A DNA stretch of 54,072 nt, taken from contig DASRSD010000080.1 of the NCBI GenBank assembly GCA_035656635.1, forward strand, positions 1 through 54,072. Direction: 5' to 3'. This document shows positions 32,756 to 46,727 of the stretch, one piece after another (position 1 is the stretch's first letter; every line of letters starts with the position of its first letter). A model generated the notes under the pieces. The model had not been told where the DNA came from, did not search any database, and saw nothing but the letters and a program-made list of their open reading frames with translations. The position numbers were made by a program, and so were the translations under genes. This stretch comes from Pirellulales bacterium (GTDB lineage Bacteria > Planctomycetota > Planctomycetia > Pirellulales > JADZDJ01).

Positions 32756-32804
32756 CCGGCGATACCATCGCCGGCTTTGTGCAAACACTGGCGATGCCAT
32801 CGCC
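32756..32804. repeat. Two tandem hairpins, GGCGAT-NCC-ATCGCC
   Basis: CCGGCGAT-ACC-ATCGCCGG (32756-32774) is followed after 15 nt by GGCGAT-GCC-ATCGCC (32790-32804). Both continue CGGCTTT, so a unit of about 21 nt is directly repeated. They lie between prmC and murA and could reduce read-through or stabilise mRNA ends. Confidence 0.65.
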
Positions 32805-32808
32805 GGCT

Positions 32809-33771
32809 TTATGATTTTTTGGCCTGCACCACGCGCGGGTGGCTGGCCGAATCTTTGAGTGTGGGGCCGAGCTCGAAGCCGCCGTGCTGCGAAATGATTT
32901 CGCGCACCGCCGGTTCGATCATCGGACTCACTTCCAACAGCAGCCAGCCGCCGGACTCCAGGCGATCGGCTGCTTGCGGCACCAGCCGTTGGATGACTTC
33001 CGTTCCACGCGGTCCGGCAACCAAAGCCTGCCGTGGCTCAAAATTGCGTACCGAGGGGGAAAGTGTAGCAAATTCCGCTTCGCTGACATACGGCGGATTG
33101 CTGGCAATGAGGTTAAATTTTTGTTCAGACGGCAGCGCTGACAGCAAATCGGACACGATGAATTCAATGCGGTCAGCGACATGATGAGCGGCGGCGTTTT
33201 GACGGGCAACTTCCAGCGCCGCGGCGCTGGCATCGACGGCGGTGATGTGGGCCGTGGGCAAATGCTTGGCCGCGCAAATGGCGATGATGCCGCTGCCGGT
33301 GCCAATGTCGGCGATGTGCACTCCCTCTCCCTGGATGGGAGAGGGTTGGGGTGAGGGTGCTGACTTGTAATGCGATTCCCCCTCACCCTCCCCTCTTCCG
33401 CCAGGGGAGAGGGTTTTGAAATCGGACTCGGCCAAATCGAGCAAGCGCACCACCAGCGTTTCGGTTTCCGGGCGCGGAATTAACACATCGGGAGTAACGC
33501 GAAACGAAAGCGAAAAGAATTCGCGCTGGCCGACTAAGTACGCCACGGGAGTTCCTTCGGCGCGGCGGCGGACCAGTTCGCGGAATGCAGTTCGGGTGGG
33601 GTCGTCCGCTATTTCGGCGAAGGCGGTGTATAAATCGATCCGCTTGCAACCGCGGGCCGTGGCCAGCAGTACTTCAGCATCGAGCCGGGGGGAATCGGAG
33701 CCCTGCTGCTTCAAATAATCTGTCGTCCAAGTCAGCAACCGCCCGATGGTCCAAGATTCGGATTGAGACAT
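32809..33771 (-). CDS. prmC: Peptide chain release factor N5-glutamine methyltransferase with repeat-derived insert
   Basis: PrmC methylates the Gln of the GGQ motif in release factors with S-adenosylmethionine. The 320-residue protein has the N-terminal helical domain, VLIPRPETETLVVRLLDLAE, the SAM motif VHIADIGTGSGIIAI, and the substrate motif NPPY (225-228). Residues about 119-150 (FKTLSPGGRGEGEGESHYKS and APSPQPSPIQGEG) do not belong to the family. They are encoded by a palindromic dispersed repeat and sit in the linker between the two domains, just before the SAM motif. The reading frame is kept, so the enzyme is probably still active. It follows prfA, its substrate gene, by 84 nt. Confidence 0.95.
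   Translation of the reverse strand: MSQSESWTIGRLLTWTTDYLKQQGSDSPRLDAEVLLATARGCKRIDLYTAFAEIADDPTRTAFRELVRRRAEGTPVAYLVGQREFFSLSFRVTPDVLIPRPETETLVVRLLDLAESDFKTLSPGGRGEGEGESHYKSAPSPQPSPIQGEGVHIADIGTGSGIIAICAAKHLPTAHITAVDASAAALEVARQNAAAHHVADRIEFIVSDLLSALPSEQKFNLIASNPPYVSEAEFATLSPSVRNFEPRQALVAGPRGTEVIQRLVPQAADRLESGGWLLLEVSPMIEPAVREIISQHGGFELGPTLKDSASHPRVVQAKKS
33321..33413. repeat. Palindromic dispersed repeat inserted in frame in prmC
   Basis: Three stems can be drawn: CCCTCTCCC-TGGAT-GGGAGAGGG (33323-33331 / 33337-33345, perfect); GGGTGAGGG (33349-33357) with CCCTCACCC (33380-33388); and an imperfect CCCTCCCCT...AGGGGAGAGGG arm to 33413. It is the type of repeat that encodes 'PSPQPSP..GEG' peptides in many genomes. 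Confidence 0.85.
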
Positions 33772-33829
33772 CAGTCGCTGCCCGTTTCCGCTCCCTCACG
33801 GTCGCGGCTCTATGGTTTTATCGTTCCGA

Positions 33830-45852: not shown

Positions 45853-45869
45853 AATTAATTGATTTACCC

Positions 45870-46727
45870 ATGGCTGTTCCGCACGAGTTTGTTGAAAAAC
45901 TGGCTGAGCTTTCTTCCGCGGGGCGGCCGTTTGCGGCGGTCACGCTGGTGGAAACCGTCGGCAGCACTCCCTCGGATGCCGGCACGAAAATGCTGATCGA
46001 TACGTCGGGCCTCGTGTTCGGCACGGTCGGCGGCGGAAAGGTGGAAAGCAAAGCCATCGGGCATGCGCAGGAGTTGCTCAATCATGCGGCCAACGGCTCG
46101 CCGACTTGTGCGCTCGTGGAGTGGAACTTGCAGCGCGATGTGGGCATGACCTGCGGCGGCGTGGTGAAGCTGTTGTTTGAAGCGTACAACTTCCACGAGT
46201 GGCGGATCGTGGTATTCGGCGCCGGCCACGTAGCCCAGGCGCTGGTGCGGTTGCTGCTGCTCTTGGAGTGCCGCTTAATTTGCATCGATCAGCGGGAAGA
46301 ATGGCTGGCCAAGCTGCCGCATTCCCCCAAGCTGCGCACGGTGTTGCTGCCTGAGCCGCGAGATTTTGTTTCCGAATTGCGGCCGGAAGATTACGTCATT
46401 TGCATGACTATGGGACACAAGACCGATCGGCCGATTTTACAAGCGATTTTGGAACGCAATCTCCCTCGCCCTTTGGGAGAGGGCCGGCGTGAGGGTGCCG
46501 CAATTCTCTCGCAGAATTTCCAGTTGCCCTATCTCGGTGTTATCGGCAGCCAGGCCAAGCGCAAAGTGCTGGTGCGGGAGCTGATCGAAGCGGGCATGGC
46601 AAAAGATTTGGCCGAACAGTTCCGCTGCCCCATCGGATTGCCGCTGGGCACGAATCAGCCGGGCGAAATTGCGGTGAGCATTGCCGCCGAATTCATCCAA
46701 TGCCGCGATGCGGTGCCAAAATCCTGA
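45870..46727 (+). CDS. xdhC: XdhC/CoxI-family molybdenum hydroxylase maturation factor
   Basis: XdhC binds molybdenum cofactor and helps its sulfuration and insertion into XdhB. The 285-residue protein has the N-terminal XdhC/CoxI domain (AAVTLVETVGSTPSDAGTKM, GTVGGGKVESKAIGHA, MTCGGVVKLLFE with the conserved Cys), then a Rossmann part (WRIVVFGAGHVAQALVRLLL, YVICMTMGHKTDRPILQA) and the end LGVIGSQAKRKVLVRELIEA. Residues about 198-210 (NLPRPLGEGRREG) are an insert coded by a palindromic repeat of the same family as that in prmC. It lies 17 nt after the repeat that separates it from xdhB. Confidence 0.9.
   Translation: MAVPHEFVEKLAELSSAGRPFAAVTLVETVGSTPSDAGTKMLIDTSGLVFGTVGGGKVESKAIGHAQELLNHAANGSPTCALVEWNLQRDVGMTCGGVVKLLFEAYNFHEWRIVVFGAGHVAQALVRLLLLLECRLICIDQREEWLAKLPHSPKLRTVLLPEPRDFVSELRPEDYVICMTMGHKTDRPILQAILERNLPRPLGEGRREGAAILSQNFQLPYLGVIGSQAKRKVLVRELIEAGMAKDLAEQFRCPIGLPLGTNQPGEIAVSIAAEFIQCRDAVPKS
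46461..46499. repeat. Palindromic dispersed repeat inserted in frame in xdhC
   Basis: CCCTCGCCC-TTT-GGGAGAGGG (46463-46471 / 46475-46483, one mismatch) is followed by CCGGCGTGAGGGTGCCG. It matches the first stem and the GTGAGGGTGC part of the repeat in prmC (33323-33360) and is a shortened copy. Confidence 0.75.

Follow-up and report, generated by a model that had tools for sequence, protein, structure and literature searches.

Judged by its sequence, the DNA at positions 33321-33415 of the window (the whole stretch of 54,072 nt of a Pirellulales genome that was analysed) is an inverted pair of the BoxC/PIT/TM_ECO intrastrand-triplex repeat, inserted in the gene prmC. Very probably this pair is a selfish element that is tolerated in a disordered linker of PrmC, and copies in other genes are tolerated likewise. 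Features of the window are listed below, with scores from R1, a covariance model made from the repeat copies of this planctomycete's own genome.

32809-33771, minus strand: prmC (release factor glutamine methyltransferase), the host gene; open reading frame of 320 aa
33321-33413, minus strand: in-frame coding insert, PrmC residues ~119-150; not in the same-genus orthologue
33321-33360, plus strand: BoxC/TM repeat unit 1 in prmC; R1 61.6 bits, E 5e-11
33361-33376, no strand: 16-nt spacer with inverted units on both sides; the gap between the two R1 matches
33377-33415, minus strand: BoxC/TM repeat unit 2 in prmC; R1 52.4 bits, E 8e-9
45855-46724, plus strand: xdhC-like open frame, host of the second copy in the window; XdhC_C and XdhC_CoxI domains
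46461-46498, plus strand: single BoxC unit in xdhC, in frame, LPRPLGEGRREGA; R1 42 bits, E 2.6e-6

Structure of the prmC insert

The prmC product matched the PrmC_N and methyltransferase domains of Pfam, and the insert lies in the linker that joins the N-terminal and methyltransferase domains. Unit 1 consists of CCCTCTCCC-TGGAT-GGGAGAGGG-TTG-GGGTGAGGG plus flanks, and on the coding strand it yields the peptide APSPQPSPIQGEG. Unit 2, which is inverted relative to unit 1 and reads as KTLSPGGRGEGEGE, is degenerate, with a shorter second loop and an altered stem base. A perfect 9-bp stem with a 5-nt loop was found at 33323-33345 and a second stem of the 9-bp type, with one mismatch, at 33391-33413; three such stem-loop motifs were present, against 0.02 expected from shuffled windows, and a 103-nt stretch of prmC folded 5.25 standard deviations better than its shuffles (z -5.25). 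The first-pass annotation had described one palindrome with a perfect 9-bp stem-loop; the stem-loop stands, but the single palindrome resolves into two inverted units separated by 16 nt. It had also counted about 32 extra PrmC residues (119-150), and here the insert itself is real, while the net gain over the same-genus PrmC is 22 residues, the same-genus linker itself holding another repeat. Against relatives with short linkers the extension is larger than 22 residues.

Identity and distribution of the repeat

The published BoxC/PIT/TM_ECO pattern is CCCTCNCCC-N3-6-GGGNGAGGG-N3-GGGNGAGGG (PMC4666352), and unit 1 fits it exactly. R1 recovered all eight published TM_ECO sites tested in four stretches of E. 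coli MG1655 (E<=5e-7), and the inverted two-unit layout of the prmC insert recurs in the E. coli hrpB-mrcB pair. The earlier suggestion that the PrmC peptide is of a type made by a known class of dispersed palindromes thus acquires a family name. An Rfam search with the prmC repeat returned only chance microRNA-like matches far under the cut-off.

BoxC/PIT/TM_ECO repeats have been reported from E. coli and from over 260 genomes, and TM_ECO oligonucleotides form triplexes in vitro (Holder 2015, PMC4666352). The E. coli and planctomycete repeats share the pattern, the unit size, the inverted pairs and the lack of a known mobiliser, but they differ in location: all 23 copies of E. coli K-12 are intergenic (PMC4666352), whereas about 70% of the copies examined here lie in genes, in frame. 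Intergenic location was treated as a habit of BoxC and not as a defining trait.

Two other kinds of repeat were considered. GTAG/CGTC REPs also occur within genes as single units or dimers (2013, PMC3733652), their hosts include uvrA, DNA polymerase I, helicases and tRNA synthetases, and a location in flexible linkers has been proposed for them (PMC3733652). Those repeats are tagged, and the GTAG families are linked to RAYT genes; the planctomycete consensus instead has GGGTGAGGG beside the stem and no such tag, and none of the 20 RAYT (Y1_Tnp) loci examined is flanked by the repeat, so that identity as a GTAG/CGTC REP, or as a REPtron, was rejected. Rickettsia palindromic elements (RPEs) occur as in-frame insertions in numerous housekeeping genes that are unrelated to one another (Ogata 2000, via PMC10969869), a trait also found here, in 39 genes. 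By description the two behave similarly, but RPEs are about 150 bp long and belong to an intracellular alphaproteobacterium, while the planctomycete repeat is a short triplex-type unit used in several frames, and it was placed in a different family, BoxC.

The own genome contains 61 copies by R1 (E<=0.01) and gave 32 BLAST matches, so the whole-genome search proposed for the prmC element turned up about 60 others; the same-genus genome had 78 R1 matches. At least one copy was present in 35 of 58 genomes sampled from the order and in 68 of 294 sampled from the phylum, a patchy distribution.

Copies within genes

A copy was called coding-like when it sat 20 or more residues within a long open frame whose G+C by codon position was codon-like. 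Set against intergenic copies, a comparison the first-pass annotation had recommended, 43 of the 60 own-genome copies at retrieved loci were coding-like, in stop-free frames, by a test that relies on open frames and is biased toward in-frame cases by an element that is itself stop-free. Random positions were coding-like at 73%, near the share for the repeat. The 43 copies are spread over 39 genes, 35 of them with Pfam domains, including those for PrmC, XdhC, LeuRS (two copies), GltX, DNA polymerase I (PolA), UvrA, UvrD, PurH, MoeA, TrpE, a NuoG-like protein, AroB, GcvPB and ClpB, among others. The xdhC copy is the shorter one recognised earlier in the window and proved to be one in-frame unit. 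Among the copies outside genes there was no clear case of an out-of-frame gene interruption.

If two thirds of genic insertions were purged, about 47% of copies would be expected to be coding, against the 72% seen (p 9e-5), which speaks against a tolerated selfish repeat; the excess may be due to quicker decay of the copies between genes. Coding copies had lower model scores than other copies, and so are more diverged (p 4e-4), which is consistent with longer survival. The use of frames was uneven, with those rich in P, S, G and E favoured (chi-square p 4e-5). For the same-genus genome, of which a part was sampled, coding-like copies numbered 29 out of 49, as compared with only 8 of the best-scoring copies from 29 other relatives; the high coding share was thus seen mainly in this genus, with the proviso that choosing copies by score may have biased the sample.

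Insertion history

Alignment with the same-genus genome revealed empty sites. In gltX the insertion is clean, amounting to exactly 42 nt, and the BoxC unit is missing also from the same-genus xdhC, uvrA, yjeF and prmC. Both species share the copies found in gcvPB, in a radical SAM gene and in an acyl-CoA dehydrogenase gene, so that a copy can evidently persist. Since some copies are common and others missing, BoxC had been inserting before the two species separated and continued to do so afterwards; for any single site, loss of the copy by the sister species is the less likely alternative. The alignment with related PrmC sequences that the first-pass annotation had asked for showed close relatives without this linker, so that the outcome named there as refuting its reading did not occur, and the idea that the family can seed protein extensions is supported, most copies being in frame in genes and several missing from same-genus orthologues. 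Same-genus matches to the ClpB-like, CHAT and short-chain dehydrogenase hosts share 29-49% identity; being probably paralogues, they were left out. No target-site duplication could be read with confidence at the aligned empty sites. In both species a gene for an M56 peptidase (L004 in the own genome, L201 in the same-genus genome) has a BoxC unit, at roughly matching positions but in opposite orientations, which suggests separate insertions or an inversion.

Repeats in the PrmC linker of several lineages

In the same-genus genome the PrmC linker holds, in frame, a copy of a repeat that is unrelated to BoxC, CCGCTCCCTNACGGTCGCGGCTC. This repeat has about seven copies per genome, and both species have one immediately upstream of prmC. 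BoxC units were found in the equivalent linker of a PrmC from Phycisphaerae (L261, 37 bits) and, in degenerate form, of one from Pirellulales (L242), where the score of 15.9 bits is weak alone and the genome has 122 copies. In a PrmC from Nitrospirae (L284) the linker is occupied by a C-rich hairpin repeat (PPNPPLLKGG...SPLWKRGGRGDF), likewise as an inverted pair; that genome gave 66 matches to the repeat, many being one place counted on both strands. That pair resembles the BoxC pair in its hairpin-plus-third-strand form, its position in the same linker and its dispersal in the genome, but it belongs to another sequence family and another phylum.

The other long PrmC linkers examined had no such palindromic repeat, which indicates that this linker tolerates additions generally. 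Two of these (L269 and L305) are very long, Ala/Gly/Pro-rich and tandem-like or charged and helix-like, with no palindrome.

Further repeats lie around prmC. A second dispersed repeat, CCGCTCCCTCACGGTCGCGGCTC, occurs at 33788-33810 of the window, directly upstream of the gene, and a related copy is in frame in the same-genus PrmC linker (L187:9877-9897). Near three copies of this second repeat is a Y1_Tnp-like match (G000 contig C120, 28259-29626, partly L224), possibly forming a transposase-repeat unit with them. Downstream of prmC, at 32757-32815, two hairpins of the GGCGATGCCATCGCCGGCTTT type resemble sequences beside other copies (e.g. L009) and may represent another dispersed family.

Predicted effect on host proteins

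An AlphaFold2 model of PrmC (31 sequences) had a mean pLDDT of 91.6, with values of about 50 at residues ~121-150 and about 97 elsewhere, and its best structural match was E. coli PrmC (2b3t, TM-score 0.95 by target). The insert is therefore predicted to be disordered and the PrmC fold to be intact; at the other hosts disorder seems probable from the composition of the peptides. Between the two species dN/dS was 0.18 for prmC, 0.10 for xdhC, 0.06 for gltX and 0.05 for gcvPB, the value for uvrA being left out as the apparent product of an error in frame or alignment. By these ratios prmC, xdhC and gltX are under purifying selection. The ratios and the predicted fold support working host proteins, and we infer that PrmC still works.

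Mechanism and alternative explanations

BoxC is a dispersed hairpin-plus-third-strand DNA repeat, an inverted pair of which most likely entered the interdomain linker of prmC after the split from the same-genus relative. The insert would have survived through its multiple-of-three length, the lack of stops in the frame used, and a disordered peptide rich in Pro, Ser, Gly and Glu in an exposed linker, and an equivalent process would have put copies into about 38 other genes. We infer that the repeat is mobile and essentially selfish, and the surviving genic copies are presumably mostly those in tolerant linkers. Repeat copy number was correlated with the count of Y1_Tnp genes (rho 0.61, 58 genomes, not corrected for kinship), yet no repeat adjoined any of 20 Y1_Tnp loci from six genomes, the sole match being the copy in gltX, at a distance of about 1 kb; since no repeat flanks a Y1_Tnp gene among those examined, RAYT was not adopted as the mobiliser.

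It is improbable that the insertions were kept because their peptides are useful, for example in PrmC domain motion or partner binding. The gcvPB and radical SAM copies common to both species, with their similar peptides, would suit such a role, as would the uneven use of frames and the fact that the PrmC linker was struck in several lineages. Against it, the hosts are functionally unrelated, differing frames and orientations are in use, many copies are lineage-specific, the repeat families in the PrmC linker differ between lineages, and tolerance of disorder accounts for the frame use.

Stable hairpins within genes are structures that a ribosome might bypass, and in that respect they suit removal of the element at the RNA or translation level, by bypass or splicing, leaving a normal protein; but open frames and multiple-of-three lengths would be needless for bypass, and we regard this explanation as very improbable. 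Hardly credible at all is that the linker is ordinary low-complexity coding DNA which came to look palindromic by convergence. PrmC linkers are indeed variable and at times long without a repeat (L269, L305), but the DNA matches a genome-wide repeat over about 38 nt per unit (E down to 5e-11), its copies occur in both orientations and several frames, and these other copies and the empty sites contradict convergence. Tolerance of a selfish BoxC pair is the reading that we prefer.

Significance

Rickettsia and the tagged REPs already provide examples of in-frame palindrome insertion (PMC10969869, PMC3733652), and in the open-access papers searched there was no prior report of it for BoxC. The present case extends it to BoxC in planctomycetes, indicating that core enzymes can take up a widespread repeat, one viewed as intergenic, and not be destroyed by it, and that small DNA repeats can lengthen housekeeping proteins. 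The empty and filled sites provide material for finding the BoxC mobiliser, and the PrmC linker, one site with differing repeats across several lineages, is a natural experiment. A tentative extension, possible rather than probable, is that BoxC repeats are protein-compatible mobile DNA and linkers of the PrmC type recurrent safe harbours, so as to form a continuing source of linker sequence; it joins the claims that most frames are stop-free and that the frames used encode disordered peptides. If it is true, BoxC repeats would keep supplying new linker sequence in free-living bacteria.
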